In this document: positions 28,172 to 36,925 of the stretch, piece after piece
Position numbering within the stretch: the first letter of the stretch is position 1
Layout of the letters: every line of letters begins with the position of its first letter
Origin: Actinoallomurus purpureus
GTDB taxonomy: Bacteria > Actinomycetota > Actinomycetes > Streptosporangiales > Streptosporangiaceae
Direction: 5' to 3'
Length of the DNA stretch: 64,000 nucleotides
Assembly: GCF_024055795.1 (NCBI RefSeq)
Contig: NZ_JAMXMY010000003.1
Span: 248,001-312,000, forward strand
The notes under the pieces: generated by a model
Told to the model about the DNA's origin: nothing
Databases searched by the model: none
What the model saw: the letters and a program-made list of their open reading frames with translations, nothing else
Program-made: the position numbers and the translations under genes

Positions 28172-28440
28172 GCGGGTACGGCGTCGCCCCCCGCCTCCAC
28201 AGGACCCCGCTGAAGCTCCCGCCGCCCCTGGACGGTCTGGTCCTCCAGCTCGTCGACATCGCCCACGACGACGAGCGCACGGTGATATCGAAGGAGCACA
28301 ACGCACCCTGGCTACAGCAAACAGCTCGCCCGCCACCTCCGCGACATCGGACTTCCCACCCATCTCGCTGAAGGTGCGGCAGGGCAGCGCTCTGCCCCAG
28401 AACCGGCTTGGCGAGACGGCACTCATCGCGGCATGAGAGT
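28172..28440 (+). pseudogene. Degraded C-terminal fragment of an integrase/recombinase-like protein
   Basis: Two frames together resemble the C-terminal module of actinobacterial site-specific recombinase-like proteins: frame one gives LKLPPPLDGLVLQLVDIAHD then APWL; a second frame continues YSKQLARHLRDIGLPTHLAE. The usual sequence between these two parts and the catalytic core are missing, so this is a broken remnant, not a gene. The 21-bp repeat described below sits at its right end, which fits a past integration event. The identification rests on recalled family pattern and is tentative. Confidence 0.35.
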
Positions 28441-28442
28441 GC
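28422..28442. repeat. Left copy of a 21-bp direct repeat (possible attachment site)
   Basis: Identical 21-bp sequence occurs at 28422-28442 and 36832-36852, beginning CTCATCGCGGCATGAG, which itself has CTCAT/ATGAG inverted arms. The two copies bracket 8.4 kb of accessory genes, and an integrase-like remnant ends at this copy. Confidence 0.6.
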
Positions 28443-30098: not shown

Positions 30099-30836
30099 TC
30101 ACCGCTTCGCTCGCGAGCGCTTCTCTGAAACACGAGCTGCCAGAATGGGTATCGCATCGATCTTCTCCGGAGGAAGATCATTCCAGAGGAGTCCGGCCGG
30201 CCGACGCCGCGCGGGGCACTCGATCACCTCATCCGGCGTGACGATGAGGTCGACGCTGAAGTCATGCTCGGTCTCGGGGATCTCCTCGTCCACGACTTGA
30301 AGCTGATGAACGGGCGTGATGATGGTCGTCTGTTCCGTCACGAGGCCCGCTTCGATGAGTAGGGCCACTTCCAGGTCCGAGTATCCGGCGCCCTTGCCGA
30401 TTCGCGCCCCGGACCGGTTCACCGCCACGCTGCCGCAGATCACGATATGGATGGGCTGCATGTCCTCAACGCCGACACGGCGAGCGACCTGCGCGGCCCC
30501 CCTTTTCTCGGCCGCCCGCTCAGGGGGAAGGTCGAGGGATGCCGGATCGAGGAGGAAGAACGGCTGGAGGCTGGCCATCCTGGGGACGGCCATGTAAAGC
30601 AGCTTCCCGTCCTTGAGCGCCTGGATACGGACCGGGAGTTGCGCCCAGTCCGGGTTCGCCTTGATCGTGCCCGCGCGCTCCCAGAGGCTGAGCTCGGTCA
30701 GGCGCTGGGCCGTCGCCTCCGCGCCGTGGAAGCCGGGGATCTTGCCGTACGAGCCTTCCGGCGCCGCACCTTCGCGCTCAAGCAGGCGCCATACCCGGTC
30801 GCGGACGGATTTCTTGGCCTGGTCGATGTTGGTCAC
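30099..30836 (-). CDS. 5-formyltetrahydrofolate cyclo-ligase-like protein
   Basis: 245-residue protein of the 5-FTHF cyclo-ligase (MTHFS) superfamily, which converts 5-formyl-THF with ATP to 5,10-methenyl-THF. The glycine-rich nucleotide loop RIGKGAGYSDLE near residue 165 is the family hallmark, and the N-terminal helix IDQAKKSVRDRVWRLLEREG matches. It is longer than housekeeping MTHFS (about 190 aa) and closer to the divergent MTHFSD-like group, so the folate reaction is only probable. GTG 30836 is the start (GGTGAGGC upstream). It lies 15 bases after the XRE gene stop in the same direction, so the two are probably one transcript. Confidence 0.8.
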   Translation of the reverse strand: MTNIDQAKKSVRDRVWRLLEREGAAPEGSYGKIPGFHGAEATAQRLTELSLWERAGTIKANPDWAQLPVRIQALKDGKLLYMAVPRMASLQPFFLLDPASLDLPPERAAEKRGAAQVARRVGVEDMQPIHIVICGSVAVNRSGARIGKGAGYSDLEVALLIEAGLVTEQTTIITPVHQLQVVDEEIPETEHDFSVDLIVTPDEVIECPARRRPAGLLWNDLPPEKIDAIPILAARVSEKRSRAKR

Positions 30837-30851
30837 GCCTCACCACTATCT

Positions 30852-32018
30852 CTAGATCGCTGCCATAAGGGCCAGCAGGCGATCGTTAATGTCCTGCACC
30901 CATGGCTCCTGCCGCCACTCCCGGAGCTCTCTTCCGGCAGCGAACGCCAGGTTAAGCCCGCCGCCACCGCGCGTCAGTTCCACGGCGTCGATCGTCCGGT
31001 GCATGGTGGCCGCCGCCTCGTCGAGCTTGTGCTGACGGATCAATGACAGGGTGAGGTTGCCCAAGGCGATGGCCTGGCTCTTCTTCTTCGGGGCGAGCGC
31101 CCTGGCGGTCGAGCGCAGGATCGGCTCGGCCCGATCCGGCATGCCAAGGAAGAGATGACACGACCCGCTCAAGCGGTTGAATTCATTGATCGTGTAGCAC
31201 TCCGCTGCCACGTCATCCGCGCTCACTCGATCGAACTGGCCCTCGGCCTTCTTCAATGCATTTTCGCACGCTCTCACGTCGCCGGTGATGGCGTAGCTTT
31301 CGGCTATGTGCAGCAGGCTCAGTCCGGTCAGCGAGGGACTGGTCAAAGTGGCGACCTCGGCCGCCTGCGCAGCCAGTGCGAGGCCCTTGTGCGGATCGTT
31401 ATCACCGTAGAGCGCGACGAAGCCCTTGCGTAGGATGGCGTACGCCTCGGTACAGGCGTCACGTACCTGGCGCGCCGCAGCGATGGCCTCGTCGAGATAG
31501 GCGATCGGTGCGGCATGGTCGCGCCGTTGGCTGACGTCCCACATGAGCTGCCCCATTAAGGTAGCGGACTCGGCCTCCACCTCGAACAGTGCCTTGCGCA
31601 CGCGGGGGTTGGTCGCGTTCTCTCGAAGGAACTTCACTTGCCCGTGGACTTGTCCGGCGGGACCGAGCAGGGCTGTCGATGGTGCCTTGTCGTACTGCTC
31701 GTCGAACTGGCGGATGTGCTCGTGCAGGTAGGCGACCGCCACCAAATCGACCGACGAGGGCTGTTCGAGCACATAGCTCATGCGCTCACTCGGATTAGCC
31801 TGCGTGATCGTGACTTCGTCGAGCAGGGCCTGCAACTCTTCGAGTGTCACCTTCAGCGCAGCGGCCAACTTGGGCCGGACCCACGGCTGCGGTTCGCTCT
31901 CGGCCGTCTCCCAGCGCACGACTGTTGATCGCTCAACGCCCAGGCGTTCGGCAAGCTTCTCCTGGCTGTAGCCCGCCGATTTCCGGCGCTGGGCAAGGCG
32001 TGCGCGCCTACTCGCCAT
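30852..32018 (-). CDS. XRE-family helix-turn-helix regulator with TPR-like C-terminus
   Basis: 388-residue regulator. N-terminal XRE HTH (residues about 1-60): RKSAGYSQEKLAERLGVERS then TVVRWETAESEPQPW. The remainder is helical and repeat-like (ALAAQAAEVATLTSPSLTG, LLHIAESYAITGDVRACENA) as in TPR-containing XRE proteins of actinomycetes that sense peptides or partner proteins. ATG 32018 has GGGAGGGAAG upstream, whereas the longer frame start at 32039 has none. Followed by the 5-FTHF cyclo-ligase-like gene and divergent from the recombinase-like gene, so it may control both directions. Confidence 0.88.
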   Translation of the reverse strand: MASRRARLAQRRKSAGYSQEKLAERLGVERSTVVRWETAESEPQPWVRPKLAAALKVTLEELQALLDEVTITQANPSERMSYVLEQPSSVDLVAVAYLHEHIRQFDEQYDKAPSTALLGPAGQVHGQVKFLRENATNPRVRKALFEVEAESATLMGQLMWDVSQRRDHAAPIAYLDEAIAAARQVRDACTEAYAILRKGFVALYGDNDPHKGLALAAQAAEVATLTSPSLTGLSLLHIAESYAITGDVRACENALKKAEGQFDRVSADDVAAECYTINEFNRLSGSCHLFLGMPDRAEPILRSTARALAPKKKSQAIALGNLTLSLIRQHKLDEAAATMHRTIDAVELTRGGGGLNLAFAAGRELREWRQEPWVQDINDRLLALMAAI

Positions 32019-32224
32019 CCACTCTTCCCTCCCACGCATTCCAGGGACGTACCCAACATAGCCACTGAGAGAATGTCCGCCCAGGTCAGAAGCTCTATCG
32101 CCTCTTTTTTGCGTCTATCCCGCCTCTCCTCTGCTCTGGTTCTTCGCAGGTCAACCGGCTTTTCTGGTGTACAGCGGCCCGGCGATGCCGAGCCCACCCC
32201 CGTTACAGACACCGAAGGAGCACG

Positions 32225-32548
32225 ATGCGACCTGCGATCTACGGCTACATGCGCGTAGTAAGTAGCGAAGAACAAGAGGGCGAAGCCCAACAAATCAGAC
32301 AAGAACTCGCCGAGTATGCCGAACATGAAGGTTTCACTCTCGACCAGGTGTTCACCGAAAGCATCAGGTGTCAGGAACCTGCGTTCTACACCATGATCGA
32401 AGCGCTGAAGCGCCACGACGTCAAAGACATCATTGTTCCCTCTCTCTGGCACTTTGCTCGGCTGCCGGGCCTGCAGAACGCCATGCGCCAGCACATCGAG
32501 CAGGAGACCGGAGCGCACATCTGGGTCGTTCAGGGGAAGTGGCGATGA
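32225..32548 (+). CDS. Small serine-recombinase-like (resolvase N-terminal) protein
   Basis: 107-residue protein resembling only the catalytic N-terminal domain of serine recombinases: IYGYMRVVSSEEQEGEAQQI at the start and HDVKDIIVPSLWHFARLPGL in the middle where resolvases have the LSRLGR helix. There is no DNA-binding C-terminal domain, and the canonical YxRVS catalytic context is altered to YMRVVSSEE, so recombination activity is doubtful; such short forms are common in actinomycete regulatory clusters. ATG 32225 follows a strong GAAGGAG. Its stop overlaps the next small ORF (ATGA), and an RsbW-like ATPase follows, suggesting one unit. Confidence 0.8.
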   Translation: MRPAIYGYMRVVSSEEQEGEAQQIRQELAEYAEHEGFTLDQVFTESIRCQEPAFYTMIEALKRHDVKDIIVPSLWHFARLPGLQNAMRQHIEQETGAHIWVVQGKWR

Positions 32549-32623: not shown

Positions 32624-33244
32624 ATGTCCCAGCCCCGCTTCGTTGATCGGCTCGACCTGGCAGCCGTAGTGACAGCGGTCAATTGCTCGCGCGTGTTCAC
32701 CAAGCTCACGCTCGCCAAGTGGGGCGCGTCGACCATCCTCGATGATGCCGTCCTCATCACGAGCGAGTTGGTGACCAACGCCGTGAAGGCAACGGGCGTG
32801 ATGGAGCCCAACCCCAACTGGAGCAGCCTCGGCAAGCTGAACCTCGTCGGGATACGGCTCCTCGGCTTCAACGCCTCCATCGTGATAGAGGTCTGGGACG
32901 CCGCTCCCTGCACGCCTGCCGCGAAGGGTGAAGACCTTGAGGCGGAGTCGGGGCGCGGGCTTAACATCATCGCCGAGATCGCGCATCGCTGGGGCTTCTA
33001 TCCGACAAATCGCGGCAAGGTGGTGTGGGCGGAGCTGGTCGTTCCGCCGCGATCCCCATGGCTCCATGCTGCCGCCGCCGAAGCGAGTGTTCAGCCAGTA
33101 CTCGAGCCGACCTGGCCCATCGCCGGGCAACACGACCCCGAACTGCTGAAGTGCCTGATGGAAGGGCACCGCGGGCCAGACGGCAATCGGACGCGGGGCG
33201 AGCGAACCGCGTCCGGCCGCTCCCAGACGCCGCAGCCTCGGTAG
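32624..33244 (+). CDS. RsbW-like ATP-binding protein (HATPase_c, anti-sigma kinase type)
   Basis: 206-residue single-domain GHKL ATPase. The N box SELVTNAVKATG and the G box GRGLNIIAEIAHRWG are present; the C-terminal 60 residues are an added tail. Actinomycetes encode many of these; they are presumed switch proteins that bind sigma or anti-anti-sigma factors, but no partner is encoded here. ATG 32624 follows GCGAGGGC. Co-oriented with the recombinase-like gene upstream and, after a 49-base gap, with the glycosylase-radical SAM cassette, which it may help regulate. Confidence 0.85.
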   Translation: MSQPRFVDRLDLAAVVTAVNCSRVFTKLTLAKWGASTILDDAVLITSELVTNAVKATGVMEPNPNWSSLGKLNLVGIRLLGFNASIVIEVWDAAPCTPAAKGEDLEAESGRGLNIIAEIAHRWGFYPTNRGKVVWAELVVPPRSPWLHAAAAEASVQPVLEPTWPIAGQHDPELLKCLMEGHRGPDGNRTRGERTASGRSQTPQPR

Positions 33245-33293
33245 TCATCGTGGGCACCGGGACCTCGGCTTTCGCCACCAGGAGCGGCTGGAG

Positions 33294-34091
33294 ATGGAGA
33301 CGATTGGCCGCATGACAGTCGTGATGCGTGAACATCCAGCGTGGTCGCCGATAGATGGTGCCTGGCTGCGGGCATTCGGCCGCGCGGACGAGTGGAGCGC
33401 GGTATTGGTCACCGGGGACAGCTGGCGCTCCTACGGCCCGGCAGCGAACGACCCGCAGGTCGTCGAACTGATAGCGCTGCCGTCGACGGTTCCGGCTTCG
33501 CTGGCACGAAACCTGGCCGGGCTGGGGGCCGTGGCGCGGTGGCGTAGCCCGGACCTATGGGAGGCGATCGCGACAGCGATCATCCGGCAGGTGATCCGCG
33601 CCGACCAGGCCCGTCGACTACACGAACGCTTCCGCACCGCACACGGGACACCGGTCCCTACTCCGCACGGCGCCGCGTATCTGATGCCGGACGCCGCCGC
33701 GGTCGTCGAGCTACCGGCCGAGGCTTTCACGTCGCTGGGCTTGGCCTTCAAACGCCGGCCTCTGCAGGCCGCTGCCAAGGCTTACCTGGAGCAGGGCGCG
33801 AAGTGGCGTGAACTGCCATCGGCGCGGCTGGTGGAGGAGCTGCAGACCGTATCGCGGATCGGCCCATGGACGGCCGGTGCCGCCGTCGCGGACTTCACCC
33901 ACGACTGGGCCCTCTATCCCCACGGCGACCTGGCGGTCCGCAAATGGGCCGCTGCCGCCTCCCCCGACATCGACTGGCCGACTAAAGAAGAGGACTTCGC
34001 CGCACGGTGGCGGTACATCGCCGCCGACCAACTCGGACCACTCACCCTGTTCACTCTGGCATGGGGAGCACACCATGGAGACTCACCCTGA
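33294..34091 (+). CDS. HhH-GPD superfamily DNA glycosylase-like protein
   Basis: 265-residue protein of the AlkA/3-methyladenine glycosylase branch of HhH-GPD base-excision enzymes. The helix-hairpin-helix and following helix are clear: VSRIGPWTAGAAVADF, then ALYPHGDLAVRKWA, where Asp 212 matches the catalytic Asp of AlkA. The N-terminal 80 residues are not AlkA-like. It should excise a damaged or modified base from DNA. ATG 33294 or 33312 may be the start; both have poor spacing to GGAG. The next gene starts inside it (17-base overlap), tying it to radical SAM, kinase and NUDIX partners. Confidence 0.8.
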   Translation: METIGRMTVVMREHPAWSPIDGAWLRAFGRADEWSAVLVTGDSWRSYGPAANDPQVVELIALPSTVPASLARNLAGLGAVARWRSPDLWEAIATAIIRQVIRADQARRLHERFRTAHGTPVPTPHGAAYLMPDAAAVVELPAEAFTSLGLAFKRRPLQAAAKAYLEQGAKWRELPSARLVEELQTVSRIGPWTAGAAVADFTHDWALYPHGDLAVRKWAAAASPDIDWPTKEEDFAARWRYIAADQLGPLTLFTLAWGAHHGDSP

Positions 34092-35541
34092 TCCCACGCC
34101 CGTCCTGGGCGCCGACCTGACCCGCCCCCTCGACTGCCTGTTCGTCAACGCGCCCCTGCGCGACTACGCGATACGTCCGCGGGTCAACGACTACACCCTG
34201 CCGGTGCTCGGCATGGCCTACATCGCCACGTACGCCGCCCACCACGGCTTCAACGTCGGCATCCTCGACGCCGAAGCCCACGGCATGCCGATCACCAAGG
34301 TCGTCCGTACAATCAACGGCCTCTCACCCCGATGGGCCGGCTTCAACCTCCTCGCCCCCACCTACGAGATCTCCGCGCAGATCGCCGACCGACTCGACCC
34401 GGCGATCATGGTCATGGCCGGCGGCCACCACGCCAAGGCCATGCCGACCGAGATCCTCGCCGACCCACGCATGCGACGCTGCGCGGCGCTGGTCTTAGGT
34501 GAAGCCGAGACCCGCGTCGCCGAACTCCTCGTCGATCACCGCAACCGCGCAGATCTTCCCGGCGTGATGTGGACCGATCCGATCCTCGGACACCCCGTGA
34601 CCGGCGGGCGCCCCGGCACCTCCCGGTATCTGGCCCCTGACATCGACGCCCTCCCGTTCGTCGACCGCACGTACTTGGCCCAGGACCCCTACCCGGCCGC
34701 CGGTCGGATCGAGGCCAACATGGTCGGAGCGCGTGGCTGCCCATATGACTGCAGCTTCTGTGGCGCTGCGGTCTCGGCCAATCCCGACATCACCATCCGC
34801 ACCCGACGCCCCGATCAGGTCCTGCGCGAGATGGAAGCCCTCCGCGACGCCTACGGAGTGACGGCATTCCGGTTCGTCGACGACCTGTTCCTCGGTGCAC
34901 GGCGAGTCATCGAACAGATGCTGACTGCCTTCACGGCCGCCGGCATCGGCGACTGGGCGGTCTGGGACGCGACCGGCCGGATCAACGTCCTGCACCGCGC
35001 GGATGACGCCACTCTCGACCGGCTCGTCGCCAACGGCCTGCGCGAGGTCGCGCTCGGGATCGAGTCCGGCAGCGAGCGGATGCTGTCCTACATCGACAAA
35101 CGGATCACCCCGGACATGGTCCGTTCGGTCGTCGCCCGGCTCACCGCGCGCGGCATCCGTGTGAAGGGCTACTTCATCCTCGGCTTCCCCACCGAGACCC
35201 GCGCGGAGCTGAACGACACTGTTCGGCTCGTGCACGACCTCTGGGAGATGACCGGTCGCCAACCCGGCACCTTTCGGGCTTCGGTATTCGAGTTCCGCCC
35301 CTACCCCGGCACCCCCGAATGGTCCCGCCTGATCGCGACCGGCCGGTACACCACCGACCAGCTCCTCGGCTACACCGCCATCGATCTCACCGGCGACGAC
35401 GTGGACGAGTCGATGCGCCAACGCGACGAGTTCAACTTTTCGGTCGGCATCCAGTTCGGCGAACCAACCATCGCCGAGATCCGCCAGCATCTGGTCGATC
35501 TCTCACGCGAGCAGCACGCCCGAACCGGGAGATCCACATGA
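34075..35541 (+). CDS. B12-binding-domain radical SAM protein
   Basis: 488-residue radical SAM enzyme with an N-terminal cobalamin-binding-like domain (FVNAPLRDYAIRPRVNDYTL, YIATYAAHHGFNVGILDAEA, AGGHHAKAMPTEIL) and the [4Fe-4S] motif CPYDCSFC with Cys 222, 226 and 229. Later GIESGSERMLSYIDK and FILGFPTETRAELNDTV are typical of the class B/MTTase-like group. The B12 domain lacks the DxHxxG motif, so cobalamin may bind base-off without a His ligand or not at all. Reaction unknown: methylation or rearrangement are possible. ATG 34075 (GGGGAG upstream) overlaps the glycosylase gene, and its stop overlaps the kinase start (ATGA). Confidence 0.88.
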   Translation: METHPDPTPVLGADLTRPLDCLFVNAPLRDYAIRPRVNDYTLPVLGMAYIATYAAHHGFNVGILDAEAHGMPITKVVRTINGLSPRWAGFNLLAPTYEISAQIADRLDPAIMVMAGGHHAKAMPTEILADPRMRRCAALVLGEAETRVAELLVDHRNRADLPGVMWTDPILGHPVTGGRPGTSRYLAPDIDALPFVDRTYLAQDPYPAAGRIEANMVGARGCPYDCSFCGAAVSANPDITIRTRRPDQVLREMEALRDAYGVTAFRFVDDLFLGARRVIEQMLTAFTAAGIGDWAVWDATGRINVLHRADDATLDRLVANGLREVALGIESGSERMLSYIDKRITPDMVRSVVARLTARGIRVKGYFILGFPTETRAELNDTVRLVHDLWEMTGRQPGTFRASVFEFRPYPGTPEWSRLIATGRYTTDQLLGYTAIDLTGDDVDESMRQRDEFNFSVGIQFGEPTIAEIRQHLVDLSREQHARTGRST

Positions 35542-36158
35542 CAACCACGGGATACCTCATCACGATCGACGGACCGGGCTGCGCCGGCAAGTCCACGCTC
35601 ACCCAGCTCGTCGTCGACCGGCTCGCCCAGGTCGGCCTCCCAGCCCTGGCCACCACCGAGCCGTCCAAGGGCCCAGCCGGACGGCTCGCGCGGCACCACA
35701 CCGCGATGTTCCGCGGGTATGCACTGGCATGTCTGGTCACGGCCGATCGCTACCACCACCTGGAGACCGAAATCCAGCCCGCGCTCAACTCCGGCACCAT
35801 CGTCGTCTGCGACCGGTACGTACCGTCCTCTCACGTTCTGCAGATCCTCGACGGAGTCGGCCCGGACTTCGTCACGCAGATCAACGCCCACGCCACGCCG
35901 CCGGACCTGGCAGTGATCCTCACCTGCGACGAGGCCGAGCTGCGACGACGATTGACCATCCGGGGATCTCACGGCCGGTTCGAAGACGACCCCCGGATAA
36001 CGCTCGCCGAGACCCGCCTGTACCGGGACGTCGCGGACATGCTCGCGCGCAATGGCATCCCGGTCCTGCTTCTGGATTCGACCAAGCACGATGCCGATTT
36101 CCTCGCCAGGCAAGTCGTCACGTCCATCCAGACGCTAAGGTCGCCCACGCATCAGTGA
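35538..36158 (+). CDS. Thymidylate-kinase-family nucleotide kinase
   Basis: 206-residue P-loop kinase of the dTMP kinase family. The P-loop GPGCAGKST (12-20), the base-binding motif CDRYVPSSHVLQ, the LID arginines RLTIRGSHGRFEDD and the end ETRLYRDVADML are recognisable. It should phosphorylate dTMP or a related or modified nucleoside monophosphate with ATP; chromosomal Tmk is normally elsewhere, so this is probably an extra, specialised copy. DRYVPSSHVLQ differs from the usual DRYxxSxxAYQ, hinting at another substrate. Starts at ATG 35538 overlapping the radical SAM stop by four bases. Confidence 0.82.
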   Translation: MTTTGYLITIDGPGCAGKSTLTQLVVDRLAQVGLPALATTEPSKGPAGRLARHHTAMFRGYALACLVTADRYHHLETEIQPALNSGTIVVCDRYVPSSHVLQILDGVGPDFVTQINAHATPPDLAVILTCDEAELRRRLTIRGSHGRFEDDPRITLAETRLYRDVADMLARNGIPVLLLDSTKHDADFLARQVVTSIQTLRSPTHQ

Positions 36159-36172
36159 CCAGAGGGGGACAC

Positions 36173-36610
36173 ATGCCAGAGCGGTACCGGTCGATCATCG
36201 ACGTCCACGTCATCCTCGAACGCGGCAGCGAGATCCTGCTCCTGGAACGCCAGGGCACCGGCTACTGCGACGGCATGCTCCACCTGCCCAGCGGCCACCT
36301 CGACGAAGGCGAGCCCGTCACCGACGGCGCCGCCCGCGAAGCCTATGAAGAGGTCGGCGTCCGGATCGATCCCACAGACCTGCGACTGGCCACCGTCATC
36401 CACCACCGGCAGCGAACCGACCTCGCCAGGGTCGGCATGTTCTTCGCGACCGCCCGGTGGAAGGGCGAGCCGTACAACGCCGAACCCCATAAATGCGGCA
36501 AGCTCCTGTGGTGCGACCCGACTGTGCTGCCCTCCAACACCATCGACTACCCGGCAGCCGGCATCAACGCCTACCTGACCGACGCTCCCCTCACACTCCA
36601 CGGCTGGTAA
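36173..36610 (+). CDS. NUDIX hydrolase
   Basis: 145-residue NUDIX pyrophosphatase cutting nucleoside diphosphate-X compounds. The box GX5EX7REUXEEXGU is perfect: Gly 41, Glu 47, Arg 55, Glu 56, Glu 59, Glu 60, Gly 62. It lies 14 bases after the kinase stop with a GAGGGGG ribosome site, and is last in the cassette. With a nucleotide kinase, a radical SAM enzyme and a DNA glycosylase it may recycle or sanitise a modified nucleotide (inference). Substrate cannot be read from the box. Confidence 0.88.
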   Translation: MPERYRSIIDVHVILERGSEILLLERQGTGYCDGMLHLPSGHLDEGEPVTDGAAREAYEEVGVRIDPTDLRLATVIHHRQRTDLARVGMFFATARWKGEPYNAEPHKCGKLLWCDPTVLPSNTIDYPAAGINAYLTDAPLTLHGW

Positions 36611-36925
36611 TCAAATAACCGGTGCCCAACCTGCGATTGGAATACAGACGATCCGGCCCGTGAGCCGCCCGTCTTGCTGCGGCGGAGTGGTGTACTAAGC
36701 CAAGCCTCGCAAGAACAGCAACTCGGCGGCGCCCTCACAACGGAAGCCGTGTCACGCTAAGCACCTAACGCTTGCGGCCCAAAAGATAGTCGGTGGCATG
36801 ACCGGCTACCCGGTCAGTCCCCCAGGTGGTCCTCATCGCGGCATGAGAGTGCCCGATGCCGGCCCCTCGACGCGGCGAAGCGAAGCACCCGGGTGCCGGG
36901 CGACGTCTCGCGAGGGAGCGAGGAT
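36611..36925. other. Intergenic DNA holding the right copy of the direct repeat
   Basis: No supported gene in 315 bases. Contains the right 21-bp repeat (36832-36852) and the inverted sequence CACCCGGGTG near 36886. GC content drops between 36611 and 36790, resembling the accessory side rather than the GNAT side. Confidence 0.4.
36832..36852. repeat. Right copy of the 21-bp direct repeat
   Basis: Identical to 28422-28442 and in the same orientation, ending GAGAGTGC in both. A 12-base partial copy (GCGGCATGAGAG) occurs at 37652-37663, so part of the sequence may be a locally common motif. Confidence 0.6.

Follow-up and report, generated by a model that had tools for sequence, protein, structure and literature searches.

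We describe here four adjacent genes within a 64,000-nucleotide stretch of the Actinoallomurus purpureus genome (RefSeq assembly GCF_024055795.1, contig NZ_JAMXMY010000003.1, positions 248,001 to 312,000 of the forward strand), to which, at its full length, we refer as the window and from whose first letter all coordinates are counted. The four plus-strand genes lie at positions 33294–36610, each overlapping or abutting the next. In order, they encode a DNA-glycosylase-like protein of 265 amino acids with a predicted AlkA/OGG1 fold (33294–34091; assigned from a fold model and from weak matches to the AlkA-type chains 4ejy and 2jhn), a radical S-adenosylmethionine (SAM) enzyme of 488 amino acids with a B12-binding domain (34075–35541; assigned from Pfam, the CxxxCxxC motif C222/C226/C229 and a fold model), a nucleotide kinase of the thymidylate kinase family of 206 amino acids, with a base pocket altered at V67 and L101 (35538–36158; assigned from Pfam and TIGR00041), and a NUDIX hydrolase of 145 amino acids with an intact NUDIX box (36173–36610; assigned from Pfam), whose slot is taken by MazG or CYTH proteins in other loci. 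The glycosylase and radical SAM genes overlap by 17 bases and the radical SAM and kinase genes by 4 (ATGA), and a gap of 14 bases (36159–36172) separates the kinase and NUDIX genes, so that the arrangement given in the initial annotation, with three overlapping genes and a fourth 14 bases on, holds when the coordinates are checked.

These four genes form a real cassette. With the radical SAM enzyme as bait, we obtained 118 loci, or 95 once those at least 97% alike had been dropped, and 85 of these 95 de-duplicated loci carry the glycosylase, the kinase and a fourth gene (NUDIX, CYTH or MazG), while the glycosylase gene is found beside the radical SAM gene in 91. This recurrence, together with the replacement of the NUDIX gene in some loci, argues that the gene set is not a product of chance. 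The reverse search, using the glycosylase as bait, returned 14 of 394 genomes of the class (the window's own included) with a radical SAM gene adjoining in all 14, its sequence being aligned in two pieces in L170 and L176 and over residues 5–132 only in L178; the co-occurrence in other genomes that the initial annotation had anticipated was thus found from both baits. Pairwise identities of the radical SAM enzymes also correlate with those of the glycosylases (r 0.76, 3655 pairs), kinases (0.74, 3570 pairs) and NUDIX proteins (0.73, 2016 pairs), a correlation some of which shared descent alone would yield. Judging from their codon substitutions, the four genes are under purifying selection: the ratio of nonsynonymous to synonymous substitution rates (dN/dS), as obtained by the NG86 method, which is rough at these distances, is 0.13–0.27 against the two closest relatives tested (L059 and L060), and 0.25–0.84 in more distant pairs with L061 (where a contig end cuts the kinase), L078 and L062.

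Of 200 genomes of the family, 22 have the radical SAM enzyme (the window's own included; among these matches are one fragment and one distant relative). It also occurs in 16 plasmid records, in both records of the single Streptomyces phage SF3, in 126 genome_contigs stretches, of which the best 80 were retrieved, and in 9 IMG/VR contigs, one of them being SF3. Coverage reaches at least 80% in 13 of the plasmid records, 12 of them from Streptomyces or Kitasatospora (59–63% identity) and one from Solidesulfovibrio (29%). Two copies of the cassette per genome were found in G010, Amycolatopsis sp. 2-2 and Streptomyces boncukensis. Among the incomplete loci, L035 and L061 are cut by contig ends; L057, L127 and L128 have neither glycosylase nor kinase; L058 and L107 have the glycosylase only; and a kinase is missing from L094 and L137, which have glycosylase and CYTH, and from L113, which has glycosylase and NUDIX.

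Some of these loci are of interest in their own right. L058 (genome G027), where beside the glycosylase only an N-terminal fragment of the radical SAM enzyme is left, is seemingly a decayed cassette, and the same appears to be true of L216 (5001–6576) on a plasmid of Streptomyces sp. NBC_01320, where kinase and NUDIX accompany only a C-terminal piece. L128 (2777–9461; Micromonospora rubida) holds an orphan radical SAM enzyme of the cassette family, without glycosylase or kinase, preceded by a macro-domain (DarG-like) gene and a large helicase-like gene, both recognized by eye.

Turning to the individual proteins, the fourth gene of the 85 full sets encodes a NUDIX protein in 62 loci, a CYTH protein in 13, a MazG protein in 9 (one of which, L079, is counted on weak Pfam MazG matches) and NUDIX plus CYTH in 1. 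The NUDIX gene lies on the same strand in 53 of the 62 loci; in the remaining 9, all from Nocardia, it is on the other strand and the kinase gene is located upstream. The Pfam families concerned are NUDIX PF00293, MazG PF03819 or PRA-PH PF01503 (in some cases under the curated cut-off) and CYTH PF01928, and on plasmid pSITFR-21c the fourth gene is annotated as MazG-like. The window's own protein matches PF00293 at 3.7e-14, and the residues G41, E47, R55, E56, E59 and E60, which we take to be those of the NUDIX box, are present in 85 of 85 aligned rows (row counts for all four proteins include near-duplicates); its matches to MutT-like profiles are all under the curated cut-offs. NUDIX, MazG and CYTH proteins have unrelated folds, and the known enzymes of each family use triphosphates, nucleoside or other, as substrates. 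The replacement of the gene in this slot by unrelated enzymes is the strongest clue to the step involved, and points to hydrolysis of a nucleoside triphosphate. Along with the co-occurrence, it strengthens the proposal in the initial annotation that the four proteins make, charge, remove and clear a modified pyrimidine nucleotide, of which the pyrimidine, the chemistry and the purpose are conjectural.

The first protein was called a glycosylase in the initial annotation, and this identity is supported at the level of the predicted fold. Although it has no Pfam or NCBIfam match at E 0.01, an AlphaFold model built on a 60-sequence alignment (predicted local distance difference test score, pLDDT, 93.8) matches human OGG1 (Z 21.4, 250 residues, root-mean-square deviation 2.9) and A. 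fulgidus AlkA (Z 20.4, 255 residues, root-mean-square deviation 3.5) over almost its whole length, in fold comparisons that here and below cover the families listed by VIA-align. The helix-hairpin-helix (HhH) residues G190, W192 and A194 are kept in 112 of the 112 rows with letters at these positions, and D212 in 114 of 114. From AlkA/OGG1 motifs and the 2jhn alignment we take D212 to be the catalytic aspartate, and Trp192, by a reading of the motif, presumably stands at the position of the OGG1 lyase lysine, which points to an AlkA-like enzyme of monofunctional type. AlkZ and YtkR2 are reportedly glycosylases that provide self-resistance in antibiotic producers. The use of DNA glycosylases for self-resistance in such producers is documented (PMC8934636).

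Proteins of these kinds could also form a cassette for nucleotide-pool cleaning or base repair, in which NUDIX protein, kinase and glycosylase would deal with damaged nucleotides and the radical SAM enzyme would reverse or process a lesion, as both MutT-like proteins, which the NUDIX protein resembles in its below-cut-off matches, and AlkA/OGG1-type glycosylases have such roles elsewhere. We consider this very improbable in light of the sporadic distribution described above (22 of 200 family genomes for the radical SAM enzyme and 14 of 394 class genomes for the glycosylase), and also because a kinase that charges nucleotides would be expected to counteract cleaning.

The second protein matches Radical_SAM (PF04055, 4.3e-18) and B12-binding (PF02310, 1.6e-14) in Pfam, and keeps the CxxxCxxC cysteines almost throughout (C222 in 116, C226 in 117 and C229 in 117 of 118 rows); no pVip profile matches it at E 0.01. 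The closest folds to its model (pLDDT 88.0) are those of AprD4 (Z 27.3, 410 residues), MgmA (Z 25.5, 368 residues), OxsB (Z 25.2, 425 residues) and TsrM (Z 24.2, 412 residues). OxsB aligns with residues 12–488 and TsrM with residues 17–488, so that the N-terminal B12-type domain is covered; both sequence and predicted fold indicate a B12-binding domain, and the use of B12 by this enzyme is putative. OxsB acts on deoxyadenosine phosphates (PMC7074753), and in enzymes of this kind the loop after strand 3 places a residue under the cobalt, which in OxsB is Asn186 (PMC13331322). In our model the predicted strand 3 (residues 87–91) ends in an invariant Asn91, a possible counterpart of Asn186 that is suggestive only.

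The rank of AprD4, an aminoglycoside enzyme, as the best fold match (Z 27.3) would fit a radical SAM enzyme whose product is not a nucleotide but derives, for instance, from an aminocyclitol, with the kinase and the hydrolases acting on that product. It is hard to see, however, what part a DNA-glycosylase fold and three families of nucleotide hydrolases in a single slot would play in such a pathway, and we regard this explanation as the least probable of those considered here.

The third protein matches Thymidylate_kin (PF02223) at 3.2e-26, with 92.6 bits against a cut-off of 27. Its P-loop, R71 and D92-R93-Y94 are all retained; the altered DRY motif reported in the initial annotation was therefore a misreading, the residues that do differ being V67 and L101. 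Position 67 is Val in 107 of 110 rows (with one Ile, one Tyr and one gap), such that the thymine-stacking aromatic residue is missing, and at position 101, where the Tyr of SSxAYQ is replaced, there is Leu in 96 rows, Val in 9, Phe in 2, Met in 2 and a gap in 1. R71 is found in 109 of 110 rows, with one gap. In thymidylate kinases, the Tyr of SSxAYQ helps exclude a 2'-hydroxyl group. Matching the numbering by motif, we take V67 to occupy the position of Phe70 in the Mycobacterium tuberculosis enzyme (TMPK) and R71 to be the counterpart of its Arg74. In TMPK, Phe70 stacks on the thymine and Arg74 binds thymine O4, and a role is also given to Asn100 (PMC3619541, PMC8659263). In S. aureus Tmk the alignment puts Tyr at position 101; in the Tmk that the genome itself encodes on contig C44, both pocket positions are Tyr. 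With V67 and L101 setting it apart from this resident enzyme, the kinase of the cassette is unlikely to be a redundant deoxythymidine monophosphate (dTMP) kinase.

The cassette moves without its neighbours, as indicated by a comparison of 16 kb of the window with 19 kb around the cassette of a genome of the same genus (G115), in which only positions 33291–36611 are alike (77.6% over 3336 bases). In phage SF3, it corresponds to gp35–gp38, flanked by lysis/tail genes and by the integrase gene and preceded by regulators and small genes. Among the IMG/VR contigs, L142 and L144 are prophage-like, with an endolysin on one side and an integrase on the other (L144 is at least 93% like another locus in the set, so that L142 and L144 are perhaps not independent); in L140, endolysin and head genes follow the cassette, a gene layout shared by L146, and in L139 a gene for a virion structural protein lies further downstream. 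To survey neighbouring proteins more widely, we took 298 of 313 chosen neighbours, these being the products, below 900 amino acids, of the two nearest genes on each side in 84 loci, chosen from 622 genes called by a home-made gene caller. Integrase domains are rare in this set (Phage_integrase in 2 and rve in 2 of the first 150 proteins, and neither among the 25 commonest families listed for the other 148), which suggests that most chromosomal copies are without a nearby vehicle.

Presence on temperate phage SF3 speaks for the main rival explanation, namely a DNA-base modification kit through which the carrier's own DNA comes to bear a modified base, as in the 2-aminoadenine clusters of phages. 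Here, the radical SAM enzyme would act on a deoxynucleoside monophosphate, the kinase would charge the product, the fourth enzyme would deplete or recycle the unmodified deoxynucleoside triphosphate (dNTP), and the glycosylase would remove misplaced bases, a monophosphate kinase combined with a triphosphatase following what may be the same logic as in those phages. The latter, in their Z-clusters, have the MazG-fold MazZ beside PurZ and DatZ, and three genes are enough to obtain 2-aminoadenine in E. coli DNA (PMC8342488). In SF3, however, the cassette is separated by the integrase and other genes from the genes for exonuclease and polymerase subunits; the 25 commonest neighbour families listed (of 111 and 119) include no polymerase; and most loci are on bacterial contigs and not in phage records. 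We therefore consider a modification kit rather unlikely.

At the locus itself, the 8.4-kb segment bounded by direct repeats that the initial annotation had pointed out is present, with exact 21-base copies at 28422–28442 (plus strand, with the palindromic core CTCAT-6-ATGAG) and 36832–36852 (plus strand), and the exact repeat occurs at only these two places in the genome (9.25 Mb, 97.9% complete). Similarity to genome G135 starts at 36889 and to G115 at 36896, 37 and 44 bases past the right repeat, which supports a real right edge; an exact empty site was not found, and the left flank matches none of the other seven genomes of the genus. The repeat could be a recombination site or a regulator site. 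We observed one further site with a repeat-like palindromic core, on contig C11 (356112–356136), near HATPase and SAM-methyltransferase genes recognized by eye. Inside the repeat-bounded segment lies a gene for a protein of 107 amino acids with only a resolvase N-terminal domain and no DNA-binding part (32225–32548, plus strand), possibly a recombinase remnant.

The same segment contains, upstream of the cassette, genes for an anti-sigma-like HATPase_c_2 protein (32624–33244, plus strand; below the Pfam curated cut-off), an NsdA-family regulator with helix-turn-helix and tetratricopeptide repeat domains (30852–32039, minus strand), both outside the part that aligns with G115, and a protein of the 5-formyltetrahydrofolate cyclo-ligase (5-FCL) family (30099–30836, minus strand). 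The initial annotation placed the cassette in this island with its three regulator-like genes; the island as a functional unit was rejected on the grounds that only the four genes align with G115 and that 5-FCL co-occurs with the cassette at near chance level: its gene is found in 45 of 200 family genomes, 6 of them shared with the 22 radical-SAM genomes where about 5 would be expected, assuming that both searches drew the same 200 genomes. As a counterpoint, NsdA- and 5-FCL-like genes lie upstream on the opposite strand in L059 (Actinomadura sp. DC4, identical to L037) and in the two Streptantibioticus loci L119 and L132, and HATPase genes are found upstream in several loci, including shortly upstream of the cassette in phage SF3, in line with an occasional link between these upstream genes and the cassette.

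Scanning the neighbours described above against PADLOC gave, among the families listed (9 of 9 and 25 of 37), matches to DarG in 2 proteins and to mad2 in 6, along with one protein matching viperin profiles and one type IV restriction enzyme, numbers from which we claim no enrichment of defence islands. The viperin-like neighbour carries a SPASM domain and was set aside as not being a clear viperin. Directly upstream of the cassette in L033 (5007–7067), on a Streptomyces microflavus plasmid, are genes for a SPASM radical SAM protein, which matches viperin profiles at 2.7e-13, and a PCMT-like methyltransferase, perhaps a peptide-modification pair. A separate arrangement was seen in L215 (1287–4268), on the Streptomyces nigrescens plasmid phiDSM40276, where a relative of the glycosylase stands with another radical SAM protein and an annotated phosphotransferase, with a recombinase and RecT nearby. 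Profiles of pVip recognize this radical SAM protein at 5e-11 and its sequence resembles those of SkfB, PqqE and cytosylglucuronate decarboxylase, while no alignment with the radical SAM enzyme of the cassette is obtained; the glycosylase relative has lost HhH residues and keeps the counterpart of D212. We did not use this locus as evidence of a second architecture.

The linkage, gene order, mobility, selection, predicted folds, catalytic-type residues, altered kinase pocket and fourth-gene replacement set out above are the observations from which we infer substrate, product, order of steps, toxicity, target and the activity of each protein. The best explanation, to which we give about even chances, is a self-contained nucleotide-analogue module with one guard at the triphosphate and another at the DNA. 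The B12-type radical SAM enzyme would alter a cellular nucleotide, most likely as the monophosphate, and the thymidylate-kinase-like enzyme, with its pocket unlike those of dTMP kinases, would phosphorylate the product. Host nucleoside diphosphate kinase would then make the triphosphate, which would be toxic because polymerases use it. As a first safeguard, the enzyme in the fourth slot, whether NUDIX, MazG or CYTH, would hydrolyse the analogue triphosphate; as a second, the AlkA-type glycosylase would remove the odd base if it is found in DNA. We base this explanation on the 4'-thiothymidine genes thmA-C, on viperin with CMPK2, on the PDC-M51 profile matches (all discussed below) and on the self-resistance glycosylases. 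That temperate phages and plasmids carry the cassette would fit a use against rival phages or rival cells, and the phage location tilts the balance somewhat towards an analogue kept inside the cell against phages over one released against bacteria.

Several observations weigh against such a module. Among loci intact at contig ends, 3 of 95 are without the glycosylase and 8 of 95 without the kinase, and wherever a CYTH gene is present (16 loci) it lies on the opposite strand and is thus not co-transcribed. The kinase passes the NCBIfam cut-off for dTMP kinases (TIGR00041, 94.9 bits against 83.25), ordinary alkylation damage is also repaired by AlkA-type enzymes, and the top fold match of the radical SAM enzyme, AprD4, is an aminoglycoside-precursor enzyme and not a nucleotide enzyme, and is not known to use B12. 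PADLOC matches are few among the 298 neighbours, which have no background set for comparison, and MMPL (2 proteins) is the only transporter among the 25 commonest neighbour families listed (of 111 and 119).

The last point bears in particular on the possibility of a compact nucleoside-antibiotic cluster resembling thmA-C, in which the analogue would be dephosphorylated and released so as to kill other bacteria, with the fourth enzyme and the glycosylase serving as self-resistance. As this is a sub-case of the best explanation with another target, the probabilities of the two overlap; we see it as possible but on the unlikely side. Actinobacteria are usual producers of antibiotics. The thmA-C genes encode a radical SAM enzyme, a nucleoside kinase and a nucleoside triphosphatase, without conserved neighbours, and E. 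coli expressing them gave active fractions with 4'-thiothymidine (PMC12691670). However, temperate-phage and prophage-like sites near lysis genes would be more typical of intracellular use, and the lack of a recurring exporter family among those listed, except for MMPL in 2 proteins, is a mild argument against secretion of an antibiotic, even if thmA-C is likewise without one.

A further, improbable alternative is that the cassette is a defence carried by temperate phages and plasmids that tags DNA and then excises the tag. The radical SAM enzyme and the re-tuned kinase would make an unnatural nucleotide that enters mainly the DNA of fast-replicating invaders, the triphosphatase would keep its level low in resting cells, and the cassette glycosylase would strip the base, leaving abasic sites in the invader DNA. 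If true, this would be base excision turned on self-marked DNA, and we know of no immune system in which DNA marked by the system itself is treated in this way.

Should the nucleotide-analogue module with its two guards be correct, the cassette would be a portable and widespread device with immunity layers at both the triphosphate and the DNA, in which replacement of the fourth gene by unrelated families marks a step that must be kept. It would further offer a route to new B12 radical SAM nucleoside chemistry and to the kinase that charges the product, and would allow a test of chemical defence carried by temperate Streptomyces phages. We found no description of the four-gene set in the open literature searched, subscription papers being mostly outside it, and the set is not described in the available parts of PMC10853773, PMC13118837 and PMC7159879. 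As far as the literature searched shows, the logic is known, while the addition of a glycosylase and the exchange of the gene in the fourth slot are new.

Among known systems, the nearest proven analogue of the cassette is thmA-C, the 4'-thiothymidine cluster of Photorhabdus asymbiotica, whose three genes suffice in E. coli; 4'-thiothymidine is incorporated into DNA, halts replication and triggers SOS, and the ThmC triphosphatase alone gives resistance (PMC12691670). Both are compact sets of radical SAM enzyme, kinase and triphosphatase with changing neighbours, a match by gene family and description only, whereas the thmA-C kinase is described as a distant relative of the nucleoside kinase AbmG and not as resembling thymidylate kinases, no glycosylase is named, and the cluster is from gamma-proteobacteria (PMC12691670). 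A trio of the thmA-C type, of radical SAM enzyme, kinase and predicted triphosphatase, is present in 85 of our 95 loci, with the glycosylase added. Viperin, which is not known to have a B12 domain, is comparable in that a radical SAM enzyme stands beside a nucleotide kinase, CMPK2 in vertebrates or VakA in PADLOC, and an altered cytidine nucleotide is made. In human, the viperin gene adjoins that of CMPK2 (PMC10058120). The PADLOC VakA profile gives a weak match (E 0.0034), and viperin differs in aligning over the radical SAM core only (Z about 12, residues 202–484) and in having no glycosylase or triphosphatase named in its system.

OxsB/OxsA of oxetanocin and the albucidin enzymes share with the cassette a B12 radical SAM enzyme, there acting on deoxyadenosine phosphates, and a phosphohydrolase partner (PMC7074753); unlike the cassette, the oxs pair has neither kinase nor glycosylase, and an HD hydrolase in place of NUDIX, MazG or CYTH. 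The PADLOC defence candidate PDC-M51, a name not found in the open literature searched, probably pairs the same protein types as the cassette, judging from two weak matches, of the kinase to M51B (2.5e-9) and of the radical SAM enzyme to M51A (1e-4), for which no cut-offs are given; at nine M51A-like loci in the phylum, no cassette-type kinase was found within 2.5–4 kb. The Z-cluster of PurZ, MazZ and DatZ is likewise a small set for an unusual dNTP with a MazG-fold hydrolase, but is a triad without radical SAM enzyme, glycosylase or NUDIX, and replaces a base in phage DNA (PMC8342488). Taken together, the logic common to 4'-thiothymidine, viperin/CMPK2 and the present cassette suggests that they may belong to a broader class of nucleotide weapons built from a radical SAM enzyme and a kinase.

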